Shown here: piece after piece, positions 24,709 through 63,915 of the stretch | How positions within the stretch are numbered: the first letter of the stretch is position 1 | How the letters are laid out: each line of letters begins with the position of its first letter | Assembly (NCBI RefSeq): GCF_015207735.1 | Contig: NZ_JADEWG010000006.1 | Location: forward strand, 1 to 64,000 | Source of the DNA: [Phormidium] sp. LEGE 05292 | GTDB lineage: Bacteria; Cyanobacteriota; Cyanobacteriia; Cyanobacteriales; Aerosakkonemataceae | Direction: 5' to 3' | DNA length: 64,000 nucleotides | Notes under the pieces: generated by a model | What the model was told of the DNA's origin: nothing | The model's database searches: none | What the model saw: only the letters and a program-made list of their open reading frames with translations | Made by a program: the position numbers and the translations under genes

Positions 24709-25128
24709 TCATTGCGGTGGATGAGCGTGCAGTTGACATTTATTGGTTGTGGAGAATGCGATCGCACTTGCAGCAGCATAAAATGGAGTATGGCTAATAC
24801 TCAACAGCCATTTAGTAATGCCAAATTTCGTTGCTATTTGCAAAGCAGTAGCATAAAGAACCACATAAGGTTCACCTGTCGATCGCTTTTGAATCTCAAT
24901 CTCCAACCATAAATCAGACTGTTGATAGTCTCTACAAAGTACTTTCAAAACTGCCTTTTTAGCAGCAAGACGACTGGCGAGATATTGCCAGTGATTAGTG
25001 TTAAATCCAGAAACATTGCGTTCGGCAACTGTAAGATATTGCTTGGCAAAACCTTCTTCCTTTTGTTTTACAAGTGCTTCGATACTTCTGACATCGACAA
25101 TGTCAATTCCATGACCGATGATACTCAT
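24709..25128 (-). CDS. AcpS-type 4'-phosphopantetheinyl transferase-like protein with an altered metal site
   Basis: 139 residues of the holo-ACP synthase fold. HGIDIVDV at the N-terminus supplies the metal Asp (D9), and SISHTPFYAAASAIAF near the C-terminus is typical. The central AcpS motif normally reads AAKEA, with a Glu that binds magnesium; here it is AAKKA, placing K58 where the Glu belongs. The codons on the minus strand are clearly AAA AAG. The protein may be inactive, regulatory, or use another ligand. It sits between the receptor and the salicylate synthase on the same strand. A second, canonical homologue is at 28101-28520. Confidence 0.75.
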   Translation of the reverse strand: MSIIGHGIDIVDVRSIEALVKQKEEGFAKQYLTVAERNVSGFNTNHWQYLASRLAAKKAVLKVLCRDYQQSDLWLEIEIQKRSTGEPYVVLYATALQIATKFGITKWLLSISHTPFYAAASAIAFSTTNKCQLHAHPPQ

Positions 25129-25147: not shown

Positions 25148-26470
25148 TCAAGATTCTAAAACCAAATTAGTTAGCATCGTATTCATTTTATTGACCGATT
25201 CAATGTACTCATTTCTAGGTACTGACTCGGCAACAATACCCGCCCCAGCATTAAGATAAATTTCATTATCATATTGGTAAACAGAGCGAATTGCGATCGC
25301 TAAATCTGATTCCCCGTTACTATCAACCCAACCAATACCACCCGCATAAATTCCTCTTGGTTCATCCTCCAAGCGATCGATCCAATCTAAAGCTGTCTGC
25401 TTATCAATTCCCGAAACAGTAATCCCTGGAAATAAAACCTTCAATCCATCCCACAAAGTTTTTCCTGATTGAAGTTGACCGCCAGCTCTAGAAGAAAGAT
25501 GTTGCACGCACCGATATTTTTTCACCTCCATAAAGTTAAAAACTCGCACCGTTTTTGGCAAACAAAATGAACAAAGTTCGCTTTGTGCTAACCAAATAGA
25601 AAGCGCGTGTTCTTTCACTTCCTTAGCATCAGTAAATAATTCATCATTAAGTTTTGCATCCTCTTCATTAGATTGACCGCGAGGACGAGTTGCTGCAAGA
25701 GGATTTGTCATAATAAACCCGTCTTTATCGACTTGCATCAAAATTTCAGGACTAAAGCCAACCGCACGCACATTTCCAATATTTAAACAGTAAGAACGCG
25801 CTGAGTTATTCGCTTTAGCTCCAACAGTATAAGTTCCCAGCACGTCCAAATTCCCAGTAAATTTTTTGGAACGAGAGATAATAGCTTTATGCAATTCATC
25901 TTTTTGAATTGCTGCAATTAACTTCTCAATCCGCCGAGAATAATTTTCACAATCCGCGAAATCTTCTGCTAAAGAAACTGGTTCATAATCGGGAAGCTTA
26001 CTATCAATAGATAATAGTTCTTTAATTTGTTCTAATGAGCCAGTGGTTTTAACATGAACGCCTTCTGCTGTAAAGTGCAGTTCAATTTCGGGAATTAAGA
26101 AATAGAGGAGTGGCTGCTCGATCGCTTTAGAATAAGAGGAATAAAAGCCAGCCATATCAAATGCTACATAACCATAAGCCGTCCAATTTTTAATCGGTAA
26201 AGACTTCAGTAACTCACCTACTTGCTTAAAAGGATCGTCAACGGGTTGAGAAAAAGATTTTCCCATACTCTCCAGGTCAACTGAAGTTTTGTTGACACAT
26301 ACTTTAGCTAATTCATTCCCAGCAATCCGTACTTCTTCATCTTTTTCATACATTACGTAATTGCTAATAATACCAGCTTGCAAGAAATTTTGTAAAATCC
26401 CGATCGCATTTTTTTTACCAGGCACAAAAGTTTCTTGATACGAAAGCGCAGGCTTTAATTCAGTTGTCAT
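25148..26470 (-). CDS. Salicylate synthase (MbtI/Irp9 type)
   Basis: 440 residues of the chorismate-binding MST family, about the length of MbtI and Irp9. It would turn chorismate into isochorismate and then salicylate plus pyruvate. Landmarks: K195 in HKAIISRS (the general base position), GFSPEIL near 238-244, PLAATRPRG at 257-265 (MbtI-type PLAGTRA), E284 and E287 in KEVKEHALS, and the magnesium glutamates E421/E424 in NEYIES. A plain isochorismate synthase is the alternative, but no separate pyruvate lyase gene is present, which favours a bifunctional salicylate synthase. It follows the aryl ligase gene by 21 bases. Confidence 0.85.
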   Translation of the reverse strand: MTTELKPALSYQETFVPGKKNAIGILQNFLQAGIISNYVMYEKDEEVRIAGNELAKVCVNKTSVDLESMGKSFSQPVDDPFKQVGELLKSLPIKNWTAYGYVAFDMAGFYSSYSKAIEQPLLYFLIPEIELHFTAEGVHVKTTGSLEQIKELLSIDSKLPDYEPVSLAEDFADCENYSRRIEKLIAAIQKDELHKAIISRSKKFTGNLDVLGTYTVGAKANNSARSYCLNIGNVRAVGFSPEILMQVDKDGFIMTNPLAATRPRGQSNEEDAKLNDELFTDAKEVKEHALSIWLAQSELCSFCLPKTVRVFNFMEVKKYRCVQHLSSRAGGQLQSGKTLWDGLKVLFPGITVSGIDKQTALDWIDRLEDEPRGIYAGGIGWVDSNGESDLAIAIRSVYQYDNEIYLNAGAGIVAESVPRNEYIESVNKMNTMLTNLVLES

Positions 26471-26491: not shown

Positions 26492-28078
26492 TTATTTCGT
26501 ATTTTTTACTTCAGATATGTAAAAAGATTCTGCTAAATTCTGGCTACTTCCCACTAATTTACGATGAATTTTCCCGGTTGAAGTACGCGGTAAATGCTCT
26601 ACAAAGTAGATAATTTTTGGGGCTTTAAAATGAGGAAGTCGCTGTTTGGCAAACTTATAAATGCTAGTTTCCAGTTCTGAGGATGGCTTTTGTCCGGGCT
26701 TAAGACTGACATAAGCAACTACTTGAGTTAATTGTTCGCCGCGATCGGATTCTGGAACCACTGCTACTTCTAAAACTTGCGGATGCTGATGTAAAATATC
26801 CTCAATTTCCAAAGGAGAAACCCACTGACCATTTACTTTAAATAAATCGTCTTTCCGACCCATAAACTTGAAATAGCCATCAGCATCACACAGATATTTA
26901 TCCCCTGTTTTCATGGTGTTTCCATAAAGTGCTTGCCTGGTTTCTCGGAGTCGGTTCCAATAACCCAACATTAAGCTTTCTCCACTTACCAAAAGGTCGC
27001 CAATTTCACCTGGAGGGCAAGGAAGTCCATTTTCATCAACAACTCGGACATCGTAACCAGGAACTGGGCGACCGGAAGTACCAGGTTTGCATTCGCCCAA
27101 ACGATTAGCTAGAAAAATATGCAGAAATTCAGTTGTACCAATTCCCTCACAAATTTCTCGATCGTAAGTTTCTCGCCACTTTTGCCAAATACTTTCAGGA
27201 AGTTGTTCAGCAGCAGAAACGCACAAACGCACAGAGGAAGCATCTAAAGGCGAAATATCGTGTACTGCAAGAATATTGGCATAAATGCTGGGGATGCCAA
27301 AAAAAACAGTTGGTCGGTAACGTTGGATGTCGGAAATAATATCGAATGCGTTACTAGCATCTGACAATACAGTGGTTGCGCCAACTGCCATTGGCATATA
27401 AAGAGTATTTCCTAAACCGTAGGCGAAAGGTACTTTGGCAACCGAATAGGTGATGTCATTGGGTTGCAAATTAAGTGTCGCTTTAGCATAGTGTTCTGCA
27501 CAAACTACCATGCTTTGATGTAGGTGAATTACTCCTTTTGGTTTGCCCGTACTACCAGAAGTGTAAAGCCAGAATGCGGGTTCATCTTTAGAAGTTTTGG
27601 CGCAGGGAATAGGTTTGTCAAGTTGTCGATCGAGTAAAGATAAAAATGTATTATCCCCATCTTTGAGGAGAATGTGCTGCAAAAATTGCGACTCAATAGG
27701 GGCGAGTTTTTCTTGCCATTCTTGTGTAGTCAGTAAGATTTTAGCTCGCGAGTCTTGCAAAATATACTGCACTTCTTCAAGGTTACAAGCGGTGTTAATG
27801 GGAACGGGCACTGCACCGATCCAAACAGCTCCCCAAAAAGTAAAAACTAATTCAGGAGTATCGGGTAAAAGAATGGCTATTCTATTTTCTCGTTCTAAAC
27901 CGAGAGAAAGTAGCGATCGCGCTGTGCGTTGCACAAAACAACTGAGTTGGTCATAAGTATAGGTGTCGTCTCCATGCACAAAGGCGATTTTTTGGTGATT
28001 CCCTTGTTCTAGATTGTTATTTAAGAAATAAGCTGCCACGTTAAAGATACTAGGCAACTGTTCGGAAATACTTTCCAT
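26492..28078 (-). CDS. Aryl-CoA/aryl-AMP ligase (benzoate-CoA ligase-like), probable salicylate-activating enzyme
   Basis: 528 residues of the ANL adenylate-forming superfamily. The P-loop YTSGSTGKPKG is at 172-182. GIGTTEFLHIFLANR and the preceding segments look more like benzoate-CoA ligases than like DhbE/YbtE-type stand-alone salicyl-AMP ligases. The C-terminal domain has GRKDDLFKVNGQWVSPLEIE and the catalytic Lys in RTSTGKIHRK. Next to a salicylate synthase it should activate salicylate, either as salicyl-CoA or directly onto a carrier protein. Candidate acceptors are the free ACP at 28510-28773 and the ACP fused to the KASIII-like protein. Confidence 0.85.
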   Translation of the reverse strand: MESISEQLPSIFNVAAYFLNNNLEQGNHQKIAFVHGDDTYTYDQLSCFVQRTARSLLSLGLERENRIAILLPDTPELVFTFWGAVWIGAVPVPINTACNLEEVQYILQDSRAKILLTTQEWQEKLAPIESQFLQHILLKDGDNTFLSLLDRQLDKPIPCAKTSKDEPAFWLYTSGSTGKPKGVIHLHQSMVVCAEHYAKATLNLQPNDITYSVAKVPFAYGLGNTLYMPMAVGATTVLSDASNAFDIISDIQRYRPTVFFGIPSIYANILAVHDISPLDASSVRLCVSAAEQLPESIWQKWRETYDREICEGIGTTEFLHIFLANRLGECKPGTSGRPVPGYDVRVVDENGLPCPPGEIGDLLVSGESLMLGYWNRLRETRQALYGNTMKTGDKYLCDADGYFKFMGRKDDLFKVNGQWVSPLEIEDILHQHPQVLEVAVVPESDRGEQLTQVVAYVSLKPGQKPSSELETSIYKFAKQRLPHFKAPKIIYFVEHLPRTSTGKIHRKLVGSSQNLAESFYISEVKNTK

Positions 28079-28100: not shown

Positions 28101-28520
28101 TTATAAACCCAGAACCTGAACCATTACGTGCTCATCCCAATAACACCAAGTTGCTAGCCATTTCTGAATCCCACATCGTTTCGCTTGAATGCTGGCATTT
28201 CCGTATAGCTGAACAGTTAACTTGTCTTCGGTGAGGTTTGCTTCAATTTCATTCCAACCAATCTCTACCAATCCAGTTCCCAAAGCTTTTCCTACAGCTT
28301 CCTTAGTGGCAAAGCTAATGGCTAAAGAAAGGTAAGGATAACTAGAAGATTGGTAACGATCGATTTCGTCTAAAGTAAATAACAAGTTTAAGGTTTCCCG
28401 GTCGCGTAGCGTGCCGTCAGGCGTATTGTATCGCTCAACTAATCTAGCAATTCGCGGAATTGATGCGATATCAACACCAAGTCCCTTAACTTCAGCTATC
28501 TCTTCGCTTTCAAGAGGCAT
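28101..28520 (-). CDS. AcpS-type 4'-phosphopantetheinyl transferase
   Basis: 139 residues. The holo-ACP synthase metal residues are intact: D17 in GVDIASI and E74 in FATKEAVGKALGTGL. It would attach phosphopantetheine from CoA to carrier proteins. Its ATG lies inside the last codons of the preceding ACP gene (11-base overlap), a strong sign that the two are made together and that this ACP is its dedicated substrate; it may also serve the NRPS/PKS carriers. Confidence 0.85.
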   Translation of the reverse strand: MPLESEEIAEVKGLGVDIASIPRIARLVERYNTPDGTLRDRETLNLLFTLDEIDRYQSSSYPYLSLAISFATKEAVGKALGTGLVEIGWNEIEANLTEDKLTVQLYGNASIQAKRCGIQKWLATWCYWDEHVMVQVLGL

Positions 28521-28773
28521 GATTAGAGTTAGAGTGAACGGATATCGCTGCTTCGACTTTATGGCAAACTTGATCTAGCGTCATATCTTGCCGACCTTCA
28601 AGCTTAACGCTCACACCTAGCCTGCGCTTCAGTCCCAAAGCAATTTCTACAATTTCGGTGGAATCAAGTTGTAAATCCTCCTGTAGTAATGCGTCCTGGT
28701 GAAGCGATTCTTTGGGAATACCTAAATCAATCAGTATTGCTTTTAGGGTATCCATCGCTTTTGAATTGTCCAT
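28510..28773 (-). CDS. Free-standing acyl carrier protein
   Basis: About 87 residues from the ATG at 28773; a longer frame from 28851 adds 26 unlikely residues. The phosphopantetheine site is S38 in LQLDSTEIVEIAL (DST rather than the usual DSL). It is the first gene of the minus-strand arm, overlaps the phosphopantetheinyl transferase gene, and is followed by the aryl ligase, so it is a good candidate for an aryl carrier protein holding salicylate. Confidence 0.82.
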   Translation of the reverse strand: MDNSKAMDTLKAILIDLGIPKESLHQDALLQEDLQLDSTEIVEIALGLKRRLGVSVKLEGRQDMTLDQVCHKVEAAISVHSNSNHAS

Positions 28774-29324: not shown

Positions 29325-30857
29325 GTGTCTCGACACTCCATTGGTATTTGTTCGCTTGCCGTAAGCTTTCCGAAACTAATTCGGACTAATGATTACTGGT
29401 ACGACAAGTCAAGAGAGTTAGCTGTTCAACAAAAGTCAAAGCGAGTTCGGTTGCCGAGAACTTCTCAACCCATTTCCAACCAAGATGGACTTGAGATTTG
29501 GTCGCAGGAGGTAGCACCATATTTAAACGATCCATTTCGCGGGAATGTAGAACGACGAGTTCTCAGTCAAGATGAATCGTCGCTGACATTGGAGTATCAG
29601 GCAGCTAAAGAAGCGATCGCTGCTGCAAATCTCGCTGCTGAAGAAGTGGAACTGGCGATCGTCACCTCACTTTTTTCAGAATCGATCGGATTTGGTAATG
29701 CCTCTTTACTCGCTCGTCAACTCAACTTGCATTGTCCAGCTTGGAACTTAGAAACAACTTGTTCGAGTGCTTTAGTGGCATTGCAAAATGCTCGATCGCT
29801 AATAGCAACAGAAGAATATCGCAATGTGTTAGTAGTAGTTTCGCACATTGGATCTGGCACAGTAGACGATCGAGACACCCTTTCTTGGTCGATGGGTGAC
29901 GGTGCGGGAGCATTTGTGGTAAGTTCGCTAAAACCTGGACAAGGAGTTCTCGGTACTAAAATCAATAGTGCTACTGCTACTTACGGCGCTTACTCCCACG
30001 AACTCGTAACTGACGATCGAGGAGTGCCGCGAATCTGTACCCGAACGGGTGACAATGCAAGTATGCTAGCGGAAACAGCAGTTGATTTCGTTCGCAGTTG
30101 TTGCGAAGGAGCAGCAAAAGCAGCTGGAATATCGCTCTCTAGCATTGACTTTTTTGCATTCAATACACCTACAGCTTGGTATGCCAGCGTTTGTAGTAGA
30201 GCATTAGCGATCGATCCAGAACGCACAATTAATCTTTACCTACGATACGCCAACATCGGGCCAGTTTTTCCCCTTGCCAATCTATACCACGCTGCGCGAT
30301 CGGGCAAATTAAAAGAAAATGACCTAGTTCTCGTTTACACAAACGGCGCAGGTGCGACAGCAGGCGCAACGGTAATGCGTTGGGGTGATGTAGCACTAGG
30401 ATCGATACCTGCTCCTCCGATCGACGTTACTCCAGAACAAGAAAAGATTCGTTTAGCTGGATTAAATTCGCATTCAAATGATAAACCTCACCTTACAGAA
30501 ATAGAGCATCTTTCCAGAGAAAACATTTTTGCTGTCAAACCAGAAAAAAGACGGCAAATATTAGAAACTTTCCTGTTAGGATGGCTCACCACTAATTTAC
30601 AATTACCTCCAAATCAGCTTGCACCTCAACAATCTTTTGCTTTTTTACTAGACTCCCTAGCAGCTTTGACGTTTAGAAGTCGCATAGAAACTGATTTGCA
30701 AGTGCAAGTACCGATGGAAAAATTCTTTGGGGATAATACCATTGCTCAACTCGCGGAACAAATACTAAATCAATTAGAACTAGCAAACCTCATTGCATCA
30801 CAAACAAGAAATAACACCGATTCTCGTGAAGAAGAACGGGAAATTTTGACTTTGTAA
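29325..30857 (+). CDS. KASIII-like acyltransferase fused to a C-terminal ACP
   Basis: 510 residues. Residues 1-355 are a ketoacyl-ACP synthase III-type thiolase fold with the nucleophile C146 in ETTCSSAL and the G-rich NGAGATAGA near 340. By eye, the position of the FabH catalytic His (HQAN motif) reads N280 in FAFNTPTAW, and the third residue is N310 in RYANIG. Such proteins often transfer acyl groups without decarboxylative condensation. Residues about 405-490 are an ACP with S444 in LLDSLAAL. It is the first gene of the assembly-line arm, directly before the first Cy-containing NRPS, so it may load the salicyl starter. The GTG start has AGGAG seven bases upstream. Confidence 0.82.
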   Translation: MSRHSIGICSLAVSFPKLIRTNDYWYDKSRELAVQQKSKRVRLPRTSQPISNQDGLEIWSQEVAPYLNDPFRGNVERRVLSQDESSLTLEYQAAKEAIAAANLAAEEVELAIVTSLFSESIGFGNASLLARQLNLHCPAWNLETTCSSALVALQNARSLIATEEYRNVLVVVSHIGSGTVDDRDTLSWSMGDGAGAFVVSSLKPGQGVLGTKINSATATYGAYSHELVTDDRGVPRICTRTGDNASMLAETAVDFVRSCCEGAAKAAGISLSSIDFFAFNTPTAWYASVCSRALAIDPERTINLYLRYANIGPVFPLANLYHAARSGKLKENDLVLVYTNGAGATAGATVMRWGDVALGSIPAPPIDVTPEQEKIRLAGLNSHSNDKPHLTEIEHLSRENIFAVKPEKRRQILETFLLGWLTTNLQLPPNQLAPQQSFAFLLDSLAALTFRSRIETDLQVQVPMEKFFGDNTIAQLAEQILNQLELANLIASQTRNNTDSREEEREILTL

Positions 30858-30947
30858 TTGCTTAACTAAAACTCAAAATTATTTCGTTTAAAAAACCAGA
30901 ACTAGCGAATCAATTTATAACGCAAAGCACAATTTTTGGGCATCATC

Positions 30948-33900
30948 ATGGATCTACATTCACTTTTAACTACTCTTTCCAACCAAGGTGTAAAACTTTC
31001 TGTTAATGGCAGTTCGCTAGAAATTGATGCGCCAAAAGGGGCAATCACTCCAGAACTGCGACATTCGCTAGCAACACATAAAACAGAAATTTTGACGCTG
31101 CTGCAACAAAATAGTGTAAATGTGAATTCTACGACTCTGCCATCTATTGTGCCAGCACTAGAATTACGCTATGAACCTTTTCCTTTAACGGATATGCAAT
31201 ATGCTTTTTGGGTGGGTCGAAGCGGAATTTTAGAACTTGGTAATGTTGCTAATCATGGGTATTACGAAATTGAAGGGAAAGATTTAAATTTAGAACGCTT
31301 AAATTGGGGATTGCAACAATTAATTGAGCGTCACGATATGCTAAGAGCGATCGTCCTCCCCGATGGTCGCCAACAGATTCAAAAAATAACTCCTCCCTAT
31401 CAAATGCAAGTAGTCGATTTGAGAGGAGAAAATGAAGATGTTGTTAACGCTAAACTAGCAGAAATTCGCGATCGCTTATCCCATCAAGTCATCCCTGCCG
31501 ATCGATGGCCCTTGTTTGAATTTTGCTGCACTCGCTTAGATGAAGGGCGGATTCGGTTGCATATTAGCTATGATTTACAAGTATTTGATGCTTGGAGTTT
31601 GTTTCGTTTATTTGATGAGTGGGTGCAACTTTACCAAAACCCCAATTTAGTATTACCACCTTTAGAAATTTCATTTCGGGATTATGTTTTAGCTGAACAA
31701 GCATTAACAGAAACAGAACTTTATCAGCGATCGCAAGAATACTGGTTTAATCGTCTCGATACAATGCCTCTAGCGCCAGACTTACCCCTCGCCAAAAATC
31801 CCAAAGAACTCAAACAACATCGAAACAAACGTTACGAAAGCAGACTAAAACAAACAGACTGGCAACAGTTAAAAGAACGAGCAGCAAAAGCAGGTTTAAC
31901 ACCTTCTGGATTATTACTAGCAGCTTTTACCGAAATCATCGCCCGTTGGAATAAAAACCCCCAATTTACGATTAATCTTGCCTTATTCAATCGGTTGCCA
32001 TTGCATCATCAAGTTAATGACATTTTAGGTGATTTTACCTCTGTTACTCTCTTAGCTGTAGACCATTCATTATCTGAATCTTTTAGCGATCGCGCAATTC
32101 AGATTCAGAAACAATTGTGGCAAGATTTAGAACATCGTTACTACAGTGGAGTGCGGGTAACAAGAGAATTGGCGCGAAGAAAAGGTACAGCCCCCAGTGC
32201 AATGCCGATCGTATTCACTAGTACTTTAGGCTTTCGTTCTCTCGGACAAGAAACTTTGACTTTTAGCCACTTTGGAGAGTTGGTATATGGGATTAGCCAA
32301 GCTTCTCAAGCATGGATGGATATTCAAGTTTGGGAAGAAAAGGGAGAATTAACCTTTAACTGGGATGTTGTGGAAGAACTTTTTCCTGATGGTATGATTC
32401 CAGATATGTTTGAAGCATATTGTTGTTTGCTTGAAACATTAATTGCTTCTGAATCTGCGTGGATGGAAAATACGCAGCAGCTATTACTTCCGACTCAATT
32501 AGCTTTATTTAATAAGATTAATGCTACAGATGCACCGATTCCAAATCAACTATTACATGAATTGTTTGCGGCACAAGTTTTAAGACGGGCAAATGAAAAT
32601 GCGATCGTCACATCTCAAAGCAAGATAACTTATCAGGAATTGTTCGATCGATCTAACCAATTAGCTCATCGTTTGCGAAAATTAGGAGCATCTCCCAATC
32701 AATTAATTGCTGTAGTAATGGAAAAAGGATGGGAGCAAATTGTAGCAGTAATGGGTATTTTAATATCTGGTGCTGCTTATGTGCCGATCGATCCCAAATT
32801 ACCCCAAGAACGTTTGTTATATCTTCTCGAAAATAGTGAAGCAAAAATAGTACTTACCCAATCATGGTTAACAGAAAATTTAGCGTATATTAAAAGTAAA
32901 GATATTCAATATTTGTGTGTAGATACTGATGAATTAGCCCAAGAAAGTAAAGAACCACTTTCATCTGTCCAAACTCCCGATGATTTAGCTTATGTAATTT
33001 ATACATCGGGTTCTACAGGGTTGCCAAAAGGTGTAATGATTACTCATCGCAATGTAGCGAATGTGGTTGTTTACACTAATAAGCGATTTAATGTTAATTG
33101 TCACGATCGAATTTTAGCTTTAACAGCCCTGAATCATGACTTATCAGTGTATGACATCTTTGGTTTGTTGAGTGCTGGAGCATCAATTGTTATGCCCGAT
33201 GCGGATGCTGTAAAAGATCCTAGTCATTGGCTTCAATTGATGATGTCAGAGCGAGTAACTTTATGGAATTCGGTTCCTCAGATGATGGAAATGTTAATAG
33301 ATTATGCAACAGGACAATCTGAGGCATTTCCTAACAGTTTGCGCTTGGCAATTTTGGGGGGTGATTGGCTTCCGGTTTCTCTGCCCGATCGCATTCGTGC
33401 TTTAATTCCAAATATACAATTGCTCAGTATTGGTGGGCCGACAGAAACTACAATTTGGAATATTGGTTATCTAATTGAAAAAGTCGATCAAAATTGGAAA
33501 AGTATTCCTTACGGTCAACCAATGGCTAACTCAAAATACTATATTTTGAATGATGCTTTAGAAGAATGTCCAATTTGGGTTCCCGGTCAAATGTATTGTT
33601 CTGGAGTGCAGTTGGCAAAAGGCTATTGGCGAAACCCGGAAAAAACTAGCGATAGTTTTATTTCTCATCCGCGCACGGGAGAACGACTTTATCGCACCGG
33701 AGATTTAGGTTGTTATCTACCAGATGGAAATATTCAATTTTTAGGAAGAGTAGACTTCCAAATTAAAATTCGGGGACATCGTATTGAAGCTGGAGAAATT
33801 GAGGCAGCATTGATTCAACATCCTGCTATAAAAGCAGCCGTGGTGAATGCAAGCACAACCCAAAAAAGTCAAGAACGGTTAATTGCTTATGTTGTTCCTG

Positions 33901-34427
33901 ACTCAAAATTAGCACCGACAATTGAGGAGTTACGTAACTTTTTAAGTGGTAAATTACCAGAATATATGATGCCTTATGCTTTCATATTTTTGGAAAATTT
34001 GCCATTATCAGCTAACGGAAAAGTAGACCGCTTGGGACTTCCAAATCCAGAAGTTTTTTTGGAAGAATTAGAACGATCGTACATAGCACCGCAAAATGAT
34101 ACCGAACAAACCATTGCTAACTTATGGCAAGAGGTTTTAAATCTCGAAAAAGTAGGGGTGAATAGTAACTTTTTTGAAATCGGAGGAAACTCATTATTAA
34201 TTACAAAAATTTACAACAAAATTAGTCAAGTTTTTCCCGATCGTGTAACATACATATCATTGGTTGATTTATTTAAATATCCAACCATTCGTTCTCTCGC
34301 CAAACACTTAAATCAATCTCAACAAAAAGCTTCATCCGATCAAAACAATTTAGAATTAGTCAATCAGGTAGCGGCAGGTAAAAACCGCATCAAACAAAGA
34401 TTAAAACAATCCAAATTAGCTAATTAA
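30948..34427 (+). CDS. NRPS module: docking-Cy-A(Cys-like)-PCP
   Basis: 1159 residues from the ATG at 30948. Order: TubC-type N-terminal docking domain (1-53), heterocyclisation domain (about 75-500) with the full DxxxxDxxS motif (D209, D214, S217), adenylation domain (about 535-1020, core YTSGSTGLPKG near 685), and PCP with Ser in EIGGNSLL near 1080. The specificity residues by eye are D-L-Y-N-I-G-I-I-W, close to the Cys code DLYNLSLIWK of pyochelin- and yersiniabactin-type modules. It should join Cys to the salicyl starter and close a thiazoline. No epimerase, reductase or methyltransferase is inserted. Confidence 0.9.
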   Translation: MDLHSLLTTLSNQGVKLSVNGSSLEIDAPKGAITPELRHSLATHKTEILTLLQQNSVNVNSTTLPSIVPALELRYEPFPLTDMQYAFWVGRSGILELGNVANHGYYEIEGKDLNLERLNWGLQQLIERHDMLRAIVLPDGRQQIQKITPPYQMQVVDLRGENEDVVNAKLAEIRDRLSHQVIPADRWPLFEFCCTRLDEGRIRLHISYDLQVFDAWSLFRLFDEWVQLYQNPNLVLPPLEISFRDYVLAEQALTETELYQRSQEYWFNRLDTMPLAPDLPLAKNPKELKQHRNKRYESRLKQTDWQQLKERAAKAGLTPSGLLLAAFTEIIARWNKNPQFTINLALFNRLPLHHQVNDILGDFTSVTLLAVDHSLSESFSDRAIQIQKQLWQDLEHRYYSGVRVTRELARRKGTAPSAMPIVFTSTLGFRSLGQETLTFSHFGELVYGISQASQAWMDIQVWEEKGELTFNWDVVEELFPDGMIPDMFEAYCCLLETLIASESAWMENTQQLLLPTQLALFNKINATDAPIPNQLLHELFAAQVLRRANENAIVTSQSKITYQELFDRSNQLAHRLRKLGASPNQLIAVVMEKGWEQIVAVMGILISGAAYVPIDPKLPQERLLYLLENSEAKIVLTQSWLTENLAYIKSKDIQYLCVDTDELAQESKEPLSSVQTPDDLAYVIYTSGSTGLPKGVMITHRNVANVVVYTNKRFNVNCHDRILALTALNHDLSVYDIFGLLSAGASIVMPDADAVKDPSHWLQLMMSERVTLWNSVPQMMEMLIDYATGQSEAFPNSLRLAILGGDWLPVSLPDRIRALIPNIQLLSIGGPTETTIWNIGYLIEKVDQNWKSIPYGQPMANSKYYILNDALEECPIWVPGQMYCSGVQLAKGYWRNPEKTSDSFISHPRTGERLYRTGDLGCYLPDGNIQFLGRVDFQIKIRGHRIEAGEIEAALIQHPAIKAAVVNASTTQKSQERLIAYVVPDSKLAPTIEELRNFLSGKLPEYMMPYAFIFLENLPLSANGKVDRLGLPNPEVFLEELERSYIAPQNDTEQTIANLWQEVLNLEKVGVNSNFFEIGGNSLLITKIYNKISQVFPDRVTYISLVDLFKYPTIRSLAKHLNQSQQKASSDQNNLELVNQVAAGKNRIKQRLKQSKLAN

Positions 34428-39390: not shown

Positions 39391-39463
39391 GTTAACACTT
39401 TTGCGCCCTACAAATAGAGTTAGTAAAAGATAGCTAAAATTTATAAAAGAGGTAATTTTGAAA

Positions 39464-40318
39464 ATGGATATTCAAGTTGTTGGTGTTGTTGGAGCCGGGG
39501 TGATGGGCATTGGGGTAGCGCAAAATCTTGCCCAAACCGGACATCAAGTAATTCTTGTGGATATTGCCGATCGCATTTTAGAAAAAGCCAAACAAGAAAT
39601 TGCTCAAAATATTCGTTTTCAAGGTTTTTTCAATAAAAGTGAGAAAATCGAAAATCCGAGCGAAATTTTATCTCGCATTAAATTTACCACCGATTACCAA
39701 TTCTTAGAATCGGCGGAATTTATTATTGAAAATACGACCGAAAAATGGGATATTAAAAAGGAGGTTTACGCTCAACTTGATGCTATTTGCCCTCAAGAAA
39801 CAATTTTTGCTGCTAACACATCTGCTATTCCTATTACTCGGATTGCTTCGGTAACTGAGCGATCGCCTAAAGTGATTGGGATTCATTTTATGAACCCAGT
39901 ACCTATAAAGTCAATGGTGGAAATTATTAGTGGGTATCACACTTCTCAAGAAACCATTGAAACGGTCAAAAAAGTGTTAACGCAAATGGGTAAAGAAGGC
40001 ATTTTAGTAAATGATTCACCCGGATTTGTTTCTAACCGAGTACTGATGTTAACAATTAATGAAGCAGTTTTTCTCTTACAAGATCGAGTTGCTTCAGCAT
40101 CAGATGTGGATAGAATTTTTAAAGGTTGTTTTGGTCACAAAATGGGGCCATTAGAAACTGCTGATTTAATCGGATTAGATACAATTCTTTTTTCGATCGA
40201 AGTTCTTTACGAAAGCTTTAACGATAGTAAATACAGACCTTGCCCATTACTCAAAAAAATGGTAGATGCAGGGCTGTATGGTCGAAAAAGCGGGCAGGGT
40301 TTTTATGCTTACAAATGA
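39464..40318 (+). CDS. 3-hydroxyacyl-CoA dehydrogenase-like protein (FkbK type)
   Basis: 284 residues of the 3-hydroxybutyryl-CoA dehydrogenase family. The NAD-binding GVVGAGVMGIGVAQ is at the N-terminus, and the active region GIHFMNPVPIKSMVEI and NDSPGFVSNRVLM is intact. In methoxymalonyl/hydroxymalonyl-ACP operons this family member oxidises ACP-bound glycerate. A TTG at 39458 is better spaced from AAAGAGG (39446-39452) and would add two residues. First gene of a tight FkbK-J-I-H order. Confidence 0.87.
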   Translation: MDIQVVGVVGAGVMGIGVAQNLAQTGHQVILVDIADRILEKAKQEIAQNIRFQGFFNKSEKIENPSEILSRIKFTTDYQFLESAEFIIENTTEKWDIKKEVYAQLDAICPQETIFAANTSAIPITRIASVTERSPKVIGIHFMNPVPIKSMVEIISGYHTSQETIETVKKVLTQMGKEGILVNDSPGFVSNRVLMLTINEAVFLLQDRVASASDVDRIFKGCFGHKMGPLETADLIGLDTILFSIEVLYESFNDSKYRPCPLLKKMVDAGLYGRKSGQGFYAYK

Positions 40319-40358
40319 ATAGCTTAAATTTACGGTAATTAATTTGGGGTAATCCATC

Positions 40359-40610
40359 ATGAAAGCAGCTAAATCTAGAATCAAAAACTTTCTTGCACAA
40401 TATTTTGGCGATCGAGAATTACAAGATGATGAGAACATCTTTGCTCTTGGTTTTGTCAATTCCATGTTTGCTATGCAACTGGTTTTGTTTATAGAAAAAG
40501 AGTTTGAAATCACAATTGAGAATGAAGATCTCGATTTAGAAAACTTCAAGAGTATTAACGCTATGGTTAATTTACTCGATCGTAAAACAACGGTAGTTGC
40601 AGGCAATTAA
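40359..40610 (+). CDS. Discrete acyl carrier protein (FkbJ type)
   Basis: 83 residues. The phosphopantetheine Ser is S35 in LGFVNSMFAMQL; Asn replaces the usual Asp before Ser, as seen in carrier proteins of hydroxymalonyl/methoxymalonyl pathways. It would carry the glyceryl unit loaded by the FkbH-like enzyme. It lies 40 bases after the dehydrogenase and 28 bases before the acyl-CoA dehydrogenase. Confidence 0.87.
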   Translation: MKAAKSRIKNFLAQYFGDRELQDDENIFALGFVNSMFAMQLVLFIEKEFEITIENEDLDLENFKSINAMVNLLDRKTTVVAGN

Positions 40611-40638
40611 AATTAACCATCGACATTGAAGTGATACT

Positions 40639-41823
40639 ATGAATCTAGAATTAACTACTCAGCAAAAACAAGCTCAATCTGAATTTAAAGCTTTCGTAAA
40701 TGAAGAAATTATTCCTCATGCCAACCAATACGATCGCCAAGAACACACCCCCAACGAACTGATTGAAAAATTAGCTCAAAAAGGGTATTTAGGTGCTGCC
40801 TTACCTAAAGATAAAGGTGGCAGAGGCATGGATGCGATCGCATTTGGTCTTTTAAATGAAGAAATCGGACGAGGTTGTTCTTCATTGCGAAGTTTGCTGA
40901 CAGTTCATAACATGGTATCTCAAGCTTTGCTTAAGTGGGGCAACAGATTTCAAAAAGAAAATTGGCTGCCTAAATTAGCATCAGGAGAAGTTATTGCTGC
41001 TTTTGCATTGAGCGAACCTAATGTAGGTAGCGATGCCAAAAGTATAGAAACAACTGCTACGCGAGCGGAAAATTTTTACATATTAAATGGACAAAAAAAA
41101 TGGATTACTTATGGACAAATAGCAGATGTGTTTTTAGTTTTTGCTCAAAATGAAGGTAAACCTACAGCATTCTTATTAGAAAAAAATTCCCCTGGACTTA
41201 CAATAAAGCCCATTTTTGGAATGCTAGGTACGCGAGCTTCGATGTTAGCAGAATTGCACCTAAATGGTTGTAAAATTCCCTTAGAAAATCTCGTTTGTAG
41301 ACAGGGTTTTGGTTTTTCTCATGTAGCTTCATCTGCATTAGATTATGGAAGATACAGCGTAGCTTGGGGCTGTGTAGGCATTGCCCAAGCTTGTTTAGAA
41401 GCTTGCATTCAATATACAAATCAACGGCAGCAGTTTGGGGTTTATCTAAAAGAACATCAATTAATTCAACAAATGATCGCGGAGATGTTGGTGAACATCA
41501 AAGCATCAAGATTACTATGTTATCAAGCTGGCTACCTCAGAGATAATGGCGATCCTAAATCAATTATGGAAACTTCAATTGCCAAATATTTTGCTTCTAT
41601 AACAGCAACTAAAACGGCAAATAAAGCAGTACAAATTCATGGTGCTAATGGTTGCAGTAGTGAATATTCAGTTCAACGATATTTACGAGATGCAAAAATC
41701 ATGGAAATTATCGAAGGCAGCAATCAAATTCAACAAATAACCATCGCTGAGTATGGTTATCAAGAGTATTTATTTTCACCCAATCTTCCAGTGATATCTC
41801 AAGAATTAACAGCAAGGATTTAA
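40639..41823 (+). CDS. Acyl-CoA dehydrogenase family protein (FkbI type)
   Basis: 394 residues of the FAD-dependent acyl-CoA dehydrogenase fold. FALSEPNVGSDAKS (flavin contact), the WITYGQIADVFLVFA strand and IIEGSNQIQQI near the C-terminus (catalytic Glu region) are seen. In the FkbH pathway it completes oxidation of the ACP-bound three-carbon unit to hydroxymalonyl-ACP. It ends three bases before the FkbH-like gene. Confidence 0.9.
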   Translation: MNLELTTQQKQAQSEFKAFVNEEIIPHANQYDRQEHTPNELIEKLAQKGYLGAALPKDKGGRGMDAIAFGLLNEEIGRGCSSLRSLLTVHNMVSQALLKWGNRFQKENWLPKLASGEVIAAFALSEPNVGSDAKSIETTATRAENFYILNGQKKWITYGQIADVFLVFAQNEGKPTAFLLEKNSPGLTIKPIFGMLGTRASMLAELHLNGCKIPLENLVCRQGFGFSHVASSALDYGRYSVAWGCVGIAQACLEACIQYTNQRQQFGVYLKEHQLIQQMIAEMLVNIKASRLLCYQAGYLRDNGDPKSIMETSIAKYFASITATKTANKAVQIHGANGCSSEYSVQRYLRDAKIMEIIEGSNQIQQITIAEYGYQEYLFSPNLPVISQELTARI

Positions 41824-41826
41824 AAA

Positions 41827-42906
41827 ATGATAAATTTAAATTCGGAGAAATTAGCAACCAAATCAGCTAACCAAAAAACAATTAAATGTGTAGTTTGGGA
41901 CTTAGATAACACTTTATGGAATGGCGTGTTATTAGAAGACGATCGCATTGAATTAAAACCCAATGTGTTGAGCATCGTTAAAACTTTGGACAATCGAGGA
42001 ATCCTTCAATCTATTGCCAGCAAAAATGACTACGATCGAGCAATGGCTAAACTAGAAGAATTGGGCTTACATGACTACTTTTTGTATCCCCAAATTAATT
42101 GGAATTCTAAAGTTTCCTCAATCCAAGAAATTGCTAAATTAATTAACATTGGTATAAATGCGATCGCCTTTATTGACGATCAGCCATTTGAGTTAGAAGA
42201 AGTTAACTTTTCACTACCTAAAGTGTTCTGTATTAACGCCGCTTTTCTAGAAAAACTGCTTGATATGCCAGAAATGAATCCTATTTTTATTACAGAGGAT
42301 TCAAAAAATAGAAGATTGATGTATATTGGTGATATACAACGTCAAAAATTAGAATCAGAATTTGTTGGTTCCAAAGAAGAATTCTTAGCCACACTTAAAA
42401 TGCACTTTACTATTTCTTTGGCTCAAGAAGAAGATTTGCAACGAGCCGAAGAATTAACAACACGCACGAACCAACTCAACACAACTGGCTATACTTATTC
42501 ATACGATGAACTCAATCAATTTAGACAATCAAATAATCACAAACTACTAATCGCCAGCTTATCAGATAAATATGGAAGCTATGGAAAAATCGGACTAGCT
42601 CTTGTTGAATGTCAACAAAATATTTGGACAATCAAATTATTGTTAATGTCTTGTCGAGTTATGTCTAGAGGTGTCGGTGCAATTATGCTTAACTACATAA
42701 TGAAACTGGCAAAAGAAAATAACGTTCGTTTGTGTGCCGAATTCGTTTTTAATAATCGAAATCGCATGATGTATATAGCTTATAAATTTGCCGGATTTAA
42801 AGAAATTGATAAAAAATACGAACTATCTCTTCTAGAAAACGACCTCAAATCAATACAGCCTTACCCCAAATATATACAAATACAAATAATCCTAAATCCC
42901 ACTTAA
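41827..42906 (+). CDS. FkbH-like HAD-superfamily glyceryl-ACP synthase
   Basis: 359 residues. The HAD phosphatase-like N-terminal domain has the nucleophile motif WDLDNTLW (D25, D27), an SIASKNDYD segment and FIDDQPFEL. The C-terminal half resembles the GNAT-like domain of FkbH proteins. FkbH enzymes take 1,3-bisphosphoglycerate and load a dephosphorylated glyceryl group onto the discrete ACP. Its last codons (IILNPT) overlap a dispersed repeat that continues into the following intergenic region. Confidence 0.9.
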   Translation: MINLNSEKLATKSANQKTIKCVVWDLDNTLWNGVLLEDDRIELKPNVLSIVKTLDNRGILQSIASKNDYDRAMAKLEELGLHDYFLYPQINWNSKVSSIQEIAKLINIGINAIAFIDDQPFELEEVNFSLPKVFCINAAFLEKLLDMPEMNPIFITEDSKNRRLMYIGDIQRQKLESEFVGSKEEFLATLKMHFTISLAQEEDLQRAEELTTRTNQLNTTGYTYSYDELNQFRQSNNHKLLIASLSDKYGSYGKIGLALVECQQNIWTIKLLLMSCRVMSRGVGAIMLNYIMKLAKENNVRLCAEFVFNNRNRMMYIAYKFAGFKEIDKKYELSLLENDLKSIQPYPKYIQIQIILNPT

Positions 42907-62475: not shown

Positions 62476-63915
62476 ATGAGTTTTAGCGATCGACCTAACG
62501 AAAATAAAGTTACTCAAAGTATCGATCGATTTTTAGCTAATCTTAGCGGTCTCGATATCAAGCTTTGGGTGGATGGAGAACGCTTGCGATGTAATGCTCC
62601 TAAAGGAGTGCTGACACCAACTTTGAGAGGTGAACTTTGCGATCGTAAAGCTGAAATTGTAGAGTTTCTTAACAATAAGTCTAGCAACGGCGAAACTTTA
62701 GCTTTACTCAATGCTGATGCAATTTTAGATTCTTCTATTTCCCCAGAATTAGCGACTCAACCAAATGTTCAACCCAATGCTATATTGTTAACTGGAGCTA
62801 CCGGATTTATTGGAGCATTTTTACTTTACGAACTTCTGCAACAAACAGCTTCTGCTAATGTTTATTGCTTAGTTCGTGCAGATAGTATTGCATCAGCACA
62901 AAATAAGTTACAAAACTGCCTGAAATCTTATCTACTTTGGGAAGATAGTTTCAAAAACAGAATTATTCCTGTTATTGGAGATTTATCCAAACCGCTATTA
63001 GGAATTTCCGAGCAAAGTTTTCGTGAACTTGCCGATCGAATTGATACCATCTATCATAATGGTGCGTTGGTTAATCATACTTTTCCTTATTCGTTACTCA
63101 AAGGTACGAATGTTTTGGGAACTCAAGAAGTCTTGAGATTGGCTTGTCAAATTAAAGCCAAACCCGTCCATTTTATTTCTTCGATCAGTGTTTTCCCAGA
63201 AGTAGAAAATTCGGGATTGAGAGTAATTCGAGAACAGGATAATATTGATAATGGACAAGTGCCATCAGGTGGCTACAACCAAAGTAAATGGGTAGCCGAA
63301 AAGTTAGTAAATGTGGCACGCGATCGCGGACTTCCCGTTTCTATTTATCGATTAGGAAGAATTTCTGGACATAGCCAAACAGGTGTTTTTAATGTCAATG
63401 ATTTTTTGTACAGATTAATTATTGGTTGCGTTGAACTCGGTAGTATTCCTGATACCGAAATGATGCTAAATATCATCCCTGTAGACTATGCCAGTAAAGC
63501 TATTGTTCATCTCTCTAAACAACAAGTTTCTTGGGATAAAGTTTTTCACTTAGTTCATCCTGATTCTGTTTCCTCGAATTTGTTTTTTGAGAAATTGCGA
63601 TCGATCGGCTATCCCATTCAAATTGTTTCCTACAAACAATGGCATACTCAACTAATGAAAATTGCAGAAACTTCTCCAAAACATCCCTTATATCCCCTTG
63701 TCTCATTACTTACAAATAATCATTCTCAAACAGCAACCACTGATTCAGAAGTTGTAAAATTTGATTACCAAAACACTCTTAATGGATTAACAGGTACATC
63801 GATTAACTGTCCTCCGATCGATGATAAATTGCTGAACACTTACTGTTCTTTCTTGATTGGTAAAGGATTTTTAGACCCACCTTTCATCAGTCATGAATTG
63901 AAACAAGCGGTATAG
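62476..63915 (+). CDS. Stand-alone thioester reductase with TubC-type docking domain
   Basis: 479 residues. Residues about 15-75 form a TubC-type docking domain very like that of the preceding NRPS (DIKLWVDGERLRCNAP). The rest is a Lys2/CAR-type NAD(P)H thioester reductase: LLTGATGFIGAFLLYEL near 100, VYCLVRADS, YHNGALVNH, FISSISVF and the YNQSKWVAEKL catalytic Tyr/Lys. It would release the finished chain from the last PCP as an aldehyde, or after a second reduction as an alcohol. Normally this domain is fused to the last module; here it is a separate protein that must dock. Confidence 0.9.
   Translation: MSFSDRPNENKVTQSIDRFLANLSGLDIKLWVDGERLRCNAPKGVLTPTLRGELCDRKAEIVEFLNNKSSNGETLALLNADAILDSSISPELATQPNVQPNAILLTGATGFIGAFLLYELLQQTASANVYCLVRADSIASAQNKLQNCLKSYLLWEDSFKNRIIPVIGDLSKPLLGISEQSFRELADRIDTIYHNGALVNHTFPYSLLKGTNVLGTQEVLRLACQIKAKPVHFISSISVFPEVENSGLRVIREQDNIDNGQVPSGGYNQSKWVAEKLVNVARDRGLPVSIYRLGRISGHSQTGVFNVNDFLYRLIIGCVELGSIPDTEMMLNIIPVDYASKAIVHLSKQQVSWDKVFHLVHPDSVSSNLFFEKLRSIGYPIQIVSYKQWHTQLMKIAETSPKHPLYPLVSLLTNNHSQTATTDSEVVKFDYQNTLNGLTGTSINCPPIDDKLLNTYCSFLIGKGFLDPPFISHELKQAV

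Follow-up and report, generated by a model that had tools for sequence, protein, structure and literature searches.

The product of a 510-codon gene in the 64,000-nucleotide window analysed here (positions 1 to 64,000 of contig NZ_JADEWG010000006.1, from the 7.5 Mb genome of [Phormidium] sp. LEGE 05292, our G000) is a KASIII-like domain fused to an acyl carrier protein (ACP), and from its sequence and its relatives we find it probable that this KASIII-ACP is a starter-transfer adaptor, which would bring a salicyl group from a free ACP to the first Cy module of a nonribosomal peptide synthetase (NRPS). The region from 24.7 to 64 kb of the window looks like an NRPS/PKS metallophore cluster with salicylate as its starter and adjoins genes for a TonB-type receptor and for a putative substrate-binding protein, both named by eye. 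It holds together what marks salicyl-capped cyanobacterial metallophores, namely a salicylate synthase (below its cut-off), a salicylate-activating ligase and a first module assigned to the Cy type by parallel. The features that the argument needs are the following.

24709-25128, minus strand: AcpS-type phosphopantetheinyl transferase 2 (Pfam).
25148-26470, minus strand: salicylate synthase (TIGR03494, 323.2 bits, just below the cut-off of 325.15).
26492-28078, minus strand: salicylate-activating ligase of the benzoate-CoA ligase family (TIGR02262, 496 bits, cut-off 375).
28101-28520, minus strand: AcpS-type phosphopantetheinyl transferase 1 (Pfam).
28510-28773, minus strand: free ACP, the likely first salicyl acceptor (weak NCBIfam ACP matches below cut-off; homologue survey).
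29325-30857, plus strand: KASIII::ACP didomain gene, 510 aa, GTG start (ORF list and Pfam).
29325-30404, plus strand: KASIII-like domain, residues 1-360 (Pfam; AF2 model and PDB comparison).
29760-29762, plus strand: Cys146, nucleophile (kept in 53/53 non-redundant sequences).
30162-30164, plus strand: Asn280, at the position of the FabH His (alignments).
30252-30254, plus strand: Asn310, at the position of the FabH Asn (53/53 non-redundant sequences).
30525-30779, plus strand: fused ACP, about residues 401-485 (Pfam PP-binding and alignments).
30654-30656, plus strand: Ser444, phosphopantetheine site of the fused ACP (28/28 relatives reaching the position).
30810-30854, plus strand: C-terminal docking tail, residues 496-510, ending EEEREILTL (conserved tail motif in the family).
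30936-34427, plus strand: first NRPS module, TubC_N-Cy-A-PCP, likely starter acceptor (Pfam, with 'Condensation' for Cy).
30957-31109, plus strand: TubC_N (beta-hairpin docking) domain (PF18563, 68.8 bits, cut-off 26).

In the relay that we propose, salicylate would come from the salicylate synthase, as its family assignment suggests, and would be activated by the benzoate-CoA-ligase-like enzyme, which most likely loads it onto the free ACP. Salicyl loading confined to the free ACP had been named in the earlier note as a refutation of its idea; in our relay such loading would be the earlier of two. The salicyl group would then move onto Cys146 of the KASIII domain as a thioester, a step to which the conservation of this residue points, and from there to the phosphopantetheine arm that the fused ACP carries at Ser444. 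The C-terminal tail would dock on TubC_N, as this pair of sequences suggests, and the salicyl-S-ACP would be offered to the Cy domain, which would join the salicyl group to the amino acid of the first module. The presumed order is therefore ligase, free ACP, Cys146, fused ACP (Ser444) and Cy. A starter role for KASIII-ACP is in itself unsurprising, and the points of note are the His-less site and the relay over two ACPs.

The fusion of a KASIII-like domain to an ACP, claimed in an earlier note on this DNA, was borne out by the Pfam domains on the 510-residue reading frame, which are ACP_syn_III (residues 142-215), ACP_syn_III_C (265-353) and PP-binding (424-479), all above cut-off. The AF2 model built from a 31-row alignment had a mean pLDDT of 80.3 and a pTM of 0.78, with pLDDT values below 50 for residues 36-53, 380-393 and the tail 496-510. 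Pfam, the model and the PDB matches agree on a FabH-type thiolase fold for the KASIII domain, the best PDB matches over about residues 1-360 being PqsC (6et0_A, Z 40.0, 2.4 Å over 321) and FabH-type enzymes (S. aureus FabH 1zow_A, Z 39.5, 1.9 Å over 308); this likeness of fold in a model is no demonstration of function. The protein also misses the NCBI family cut-offs, with 104 against 249 bits for PRK09352 and 90 against 292 bits for fabH. CerJ and ChlB3 were absent among the best 50 PDB matches listed in each of two model comparisons, and CerJ is a weak phmmer match (E 0.00053). Of the 35 relatives found by a contig search, 34 are in records titled as cyanobacterial, and the remaining one (L034) is in a deltaproteobacterial metagenome-assembled genome.

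Residues of the active site were compared with the FabH of the same genome (L037), in the window together with the 35 relatives, and in a non-redundant set of 53 sequences, composed of 36 fused and 17 stand-alone forms from the relatives and the survey genomes. This set omits two copies of the window (L036, L040), two contig-end fragments (L023, L033) and identical KASIII segments, while the alignment A1 comprises 30 of the 35 relatives (L011, L019, L023, L032 and L033 omitted). In the alignment with L037, C146 coincides with the FabH Cys, N280 in 'FNTPTAW' falls on the His of 'LHQAN', and N310 in 'YANIG' falls on the Asn of 'YGNTS'; three phmmer alignments with FabH-type enzymes likewise set N280 on the His. 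The reading by eye in the earlier note, that C146 is kept and the FabH His replaced by N280, thus held in proper alignments, and the check that had been set beforehand, a FabH alignment placing His at the catalytic position, returned Asn280. Among the window and its relatives C146 is found in 36/36 and N280 in 35/36 (Ser in L022), and of those that reach the positions all have N310 (35/35) and S444 (28/28). Cys146 and Asn310 are invariant in the set of 53, where position 280 in the fused forms is Asn in 35 cases and Ser in one, with no His in the 36, and in the 17 stand-alone forms is Asn in 11, Tyr in three, Thr in two and His in one.

KASIII-ACP hence has the fold of FabH together with its Cys and its triad Asn but departs from the Cys-His-Asn triad of the FabH condensing enzymes by having Asn280 for His, so that its triad, as read from the alignments, is Cys-Asn-Asn. 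Because of the Asn at the FabH His position, we infer that the domain is probably no longer capable of decarboxylative condensation and retains thioester exchange only. FabH without its His is still able to transacylate. Could the KASIII domain condense nevertheless and extend the salicyl group with malonyl before hand-over? The fold is that of a KASIII, but with the His replaced in each of the 36 fused forms we regard this as highly improbable, and the available parts of the fatuamide A report (PMC11877528), where the salicyl group is placed directly on the thiazoline, argue against it too. The lusichelins also have salicyl directly on the thiazoline, but the corresponding text names no KASIII in their cluster.

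The closest parallels to the proposed role are thiolase-fold Cys acyltransferases. ChlB3 of the chlorothricin pathway moves 6-methylsalicyl from ChlB1 to ChlB2, that is from ACP to ACP, according to the passages available from PMC9573744, and CerJ acts in the cervimycin pathway. From their descriptions in the literature excerpts, both differ from KASIII-ACP in being separate proteins with a Cys-His-Asp triad, whereas KASIII-ACP has Cys-Asn-Asn and a fused ACP. DpsC-like priming ketosynthases are able to hand a primer straight to an ACP (PMC12664062, in part); they differ by a Ser nucleophile and a His in the triad, and they feed type II PKSs. The excerpts on CerJ also report that the H295N change abolished transfer, and as ChlB3 and CerJ use His, a His-free site is possibly inactive as a transferase, provided that H295 corresponds to position 280. 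The missing His and the inactive CerJ variant would fit a different arrangement, in which the fused ACP is loaded by the ligase itself and KASIII serves only as scaffold or as an editing hydrolase clearing wrong starters. We think this improbable, since Cys146 and the surrounding motifs are invariant or nearly so and since the free ACP would be left without a role. Moreover, within the fused protein conservation is highest in the KASIII domain, where the mean pairwise identity is 0.68, compared with 0.47 in the ACP and 0.30 in the linker; this is evidence against a dead domain. If the adaptor reading is correct, a thiolase-fold acyltransferase can work without the catalytic His.

The question of which ACP is loaded first was addressed in 386 cyanobacterial genomes, using E-value thresholds of 1e-60 for KASIII, 1e-60 for the synthase, 1e-150 for the ligase, 1e-12 for the free ACP and 1e-250 for the NRPS. 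With these thresholds, by which weaker relatives would be missed, any KASIII-family match was found in 19 genomes, fused KASIII-ACP in 10, the salicylate synthase in 13, the ligase in 12 and the free ACP in 12. The genome sets of ligase and free ACP are identical and include all 10 KASIII-ACP genomes, and all 10 have both salicylate synthase and ligase (Fisher tests over the 386 genomes). The free ACP itself gave no Pfam match at E 0.001. At the level of loci it lies together with the ligase in 27 of the 29 in which the ligase is in reach; of the other two, L017 begins inside the ligase, and in L090 the ACP lies about 20 kb off on the same plasmid. In L003 and L007 ligase and free ACP are found farther out in the same genome, and L025 is a contig of 5.5 kb. 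Phosphopantetheinyl transferases were considered as a constant part of the device and rejected, as both are absent from the stretch examined in 6 of the 29 ligase-bearing loci.

Three genomes have the synthase and no KASIII-ACP (G005, G070 and G213), and none of them has a homologue of the first NRPS at E <= 1e-250, whereas 8 of the 9 other KASIII-ACP genomes do. The ninth, G338, has an 821-residue TubC_N-Cy protein directly after KASIII-ACP. With most of the A domain absent from this module, the G338 line may be dead; the shortened NRPS (L101, G338:C1:3118500-3138400) is either a natural internal deletion or an assembly error. The distribution of the NRPS homologue favours the transfer role, while the damaged module of G338 is neutral towards it. 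G213 has the salicylate synthase only, and in G005 and G070 the ligase, free ACP and transferase adjoin two FabF-like ketosynthase genes, one with the Cys motif and the other without it. The identical distribution of ligase and free ACP over 12 of the 386 genomes, two of which are without KASIII-ACP, makes the free ACP the better candidate for first acceptor; in G005 and G070, though, it could be simply the PKS's own ACP. The two loci in question (L078, G005:C89:1-20000, and L079, G070:C43:10000-29999) appear to be cyanobacterial clusters for type II PKSs that are primed with salicylate, with salicylate synthase, ligase, free ACP, phosphopantetheinyl transferase, a ketosynthase pair, cyclase-type genes and an MTHFR-like gene. 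L078, which additionally matches Polyketide_cyc and Cyclase in Pfam, was assigned by Pfam and BLAST, and L079 by BLAST with its remaining genes named by eye. They are reminiscent of a type II PKS with salicylate priming such as that of thermorubin, which the accessible part of PMC12664062 lists as salicylate-primed.

A salicyl-CoA intermediate is possible because the ligase scores as a benzoate-CoA ligase, above its TIGR02262 cut-off. FabH-type enzymes usually take acyl-CoA, and several of the stand-alone relatives adjoin 4CL-like ligases, so the ligase could make salicyl-CoA from which Cys146 would take the salicyl group to the fused ACP, the free ACP being employed elsewhere. Against this speak the exact coincidence of ligase and free ACP over the 386 genomes and their co-location, and we consider the CoA route unlikely. 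The alignment around Trp32, Arg36 and Arg151, the CoA-binding residues of FabH, shifts between runs and was given no weight. EncC is the ACP charged in the benzoate loading of enterocin; that system feeds a type II PKS directly and is not known to have a KASIII adaptor. Its ligase EncN charges an ACP without a CoA intermediate (PMC12664062, in the passages available). Of the loading idea in the earlier note, the non-condensing starter transfer is retained, and so is the fused ACP as donor to the first Cy domain, instead of an aryl carrier protein fused to the NRPS, whereas salicyl-CoA as direct donor has become doubtful through the shared occurrence of ligase and free ACP.

The transfer from the fused ACP to Cy, the last part of the preferred relay, is its best supported step, as judged from the docking tail, from the TubC_N domain of the NRPS and from two genomes in which the partners are naturally fused into one protein. 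Pfam divides the first NRPS into TubC_N (residues 8-58), Condensation (from 114) and a single PP-binding domain (1058-1125), with no aryl carrier domain at the N-terminus, and the Cy type of the condensation domain is assigned by parallel with the fatuamide, lusichelin and anachelin clusters. According to the portions of PMC9113145 available, betaHD domains bind short C-terminal tails, PCP/Cy interfaces included. Both sides of such a SLiM-betaHD pair are present here, the betaHD at the N-terminus of the first NRPS and a short charged and hydrophobic tail at the C-terminus of KASIII-ACP. The tail, its partner TubC_N and N310 are additional to the features in the earlier note.

A docking-type tail is found in 24 of the 27 complete KASIII-ACP reading frames (L015, L025 and L029 are without the motif) and in 9 of 15 other reading frames directly 5' of TubC_N proteins, compared with none of 6 stand-alone KASIII and 2 of the 280 remaining reading frames; the Fisher value of 3e-30 is overstated, since the sequences are homologous and the counts not independent. 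A TubC_N reading frame follows within 2.5 kb of KASIII-ACP in 26 of 27 loci, the exception being L010, which stops before the NRPS. The six motif-less reading frames 5' of TubC_N lie between KASIII-ACP and the NRPS and are of halogenase type (five) or PhyH type (one). In the five halogenase-type loci (L001, L006, L016, L018 and L019, the last assigned by BLAST and the other four by Pfam) the tail remains on KASIII-ACP. The gene in these loci is of the flavin-dependent halogenase type, which suggests halogenated salicyl metallophores, and as it follows KASIII-ACP in several relatives, the fused ACP may, speculatively, also hold salicylate during halogenation. In L030 (Iningainema) and L083 (G172) KASIII-ACP and Cy-A-PCP are joined in one reading frame of about 1590 residues, and the carrier Ser is retained in both. 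TubC_N had no match in the Pfam scan of L030, where the middle ACP has no separate Pfam stretch and is visible in the alignment only; in L083 the BLAST match to the NRPS begins at NRPS residue 66, past TubC_N, which is left unmatched. If the relay is as proposed, KASIII-ACP is a portable adaptor that puts aryl starters onto NRPS lines via a docking tail.

The type of gene is not new, as 'KACP, KSIII acyl carrier protein' is listed among the anachelin cluster symbols by Calteau et al. 2014 (PMC4247773). As in the window, the NRPS/PKS cluster of the siderophore anachelin is, in the available parts of that paper, one that starts from salicylate; it has a salicylate synthase and a 'salicylyl CoA/PCP ligase', and its genes 1-4 are candidates for making the salicylate starter unit, a set of four that is repeated in the accessible text of a cyanobacterial siderophore review. 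KACP appears in these parts as a legend symbol, without residues, mechanism, docking or partner ACP, and the PCC 7122 protein is likened to ours by name only. The fatuamide A cluster shares with the window an ACP, a phosphopantetheinyl transferase, a benzoate-CoA-ligase-like gene, a salicylate synthase and a Cy-A-Cys NRPS, and Table 2 of the excerpted report (PMC11877528) contains FatG, a 1524-nucleotide KASIII gene given no role. The best match listed for FatG is from an uncultured Coleofasciculus (compare L002), and the likeness to KASIII-ACP is one of description, not of alignment. In the published scheme salicylate is loaded by FatD onto the free ACP, FatB. The lusichelin paper, in its available passages, goes from ligase to Cy and names no KASIII. 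In both accounts, as far as these passages go, activated salicylate reaches Cy with no stated route onto the NRPS, a gap that KASIII-ACP would fill. The part of a metallophore mining paper that was searched had no match to 'ketoacyl' or 'FabH', and no description of the proposed mechanism was found in the open-access literature at the level of titles, abstract openings and passages.

The fused forms make up one clade on the tree, at a weak support of 0.444. Fourteen stand-alone KASIII loci were examined (L026, L027, L028, L031, L034, L082, L084-L089, L091 and L092), with neighbours named by Pfam for L027 and L034 and otherwise by BLAST, annotation or eye. A gene for a ThDP enzyme adjoins KASIII in 12 of the 14 (not in L086 and L091), and in six (L026, L027, L028, L031, L086 and L087) an aromatic ammonia lyase occurs together with a 4CL-like ligase, neighbours which suggest that the wider KASIII family handles aromatic acyl groups. 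We can imagine, with some reserve and with the balance leaning against it, a wider and as yet unrecognised His-less Cys-Asn-Asn family of thiolase-fold enzymes that shuttles aromatic acyl groups, where the fused branch would be an ACP-to-ACP adaptor linking a type II-style activation pair to a modular NRPS and the stand-alone branch would give cinnamoyl-like groups to a partner ThDP enzyme. The pathways with an adjoining ThDP enzyme possibly lead to an acyloin or a diketone.

Some further observations concern the surroundings of such genes. Clusters of the salicyl metallophore type with KASIII-ACP lie on cyanobacterial plasmids in L090 (NZ_CP097482.1) and L093 (NZ_AP017565.1), and the stand-alone KASIII of L091 (NC_014718.1, 341499-342590), 34% identical, lies beside ACP and AMP-binding genes on a plasmid of Mycetohabitans rhizoxinica. 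In the window, PKS1 and the second Cy-like module are separated by a row of genes (39458-42906) for a 3-hydroxyacyl-CoA dehydrogenase, an ACP, an acyl-CoA dehydrogenase and an FkbH-type protein. This is an unusual set for extender units of the hydroxy- or methoxymalonyl type, and the row contains no O-methyltransferase gene. At the end of the window, the terminal TubC_N-NAD_binding_4 protein (62476-63915) is a stand-alone, docking-tagged reductive release enzyme.
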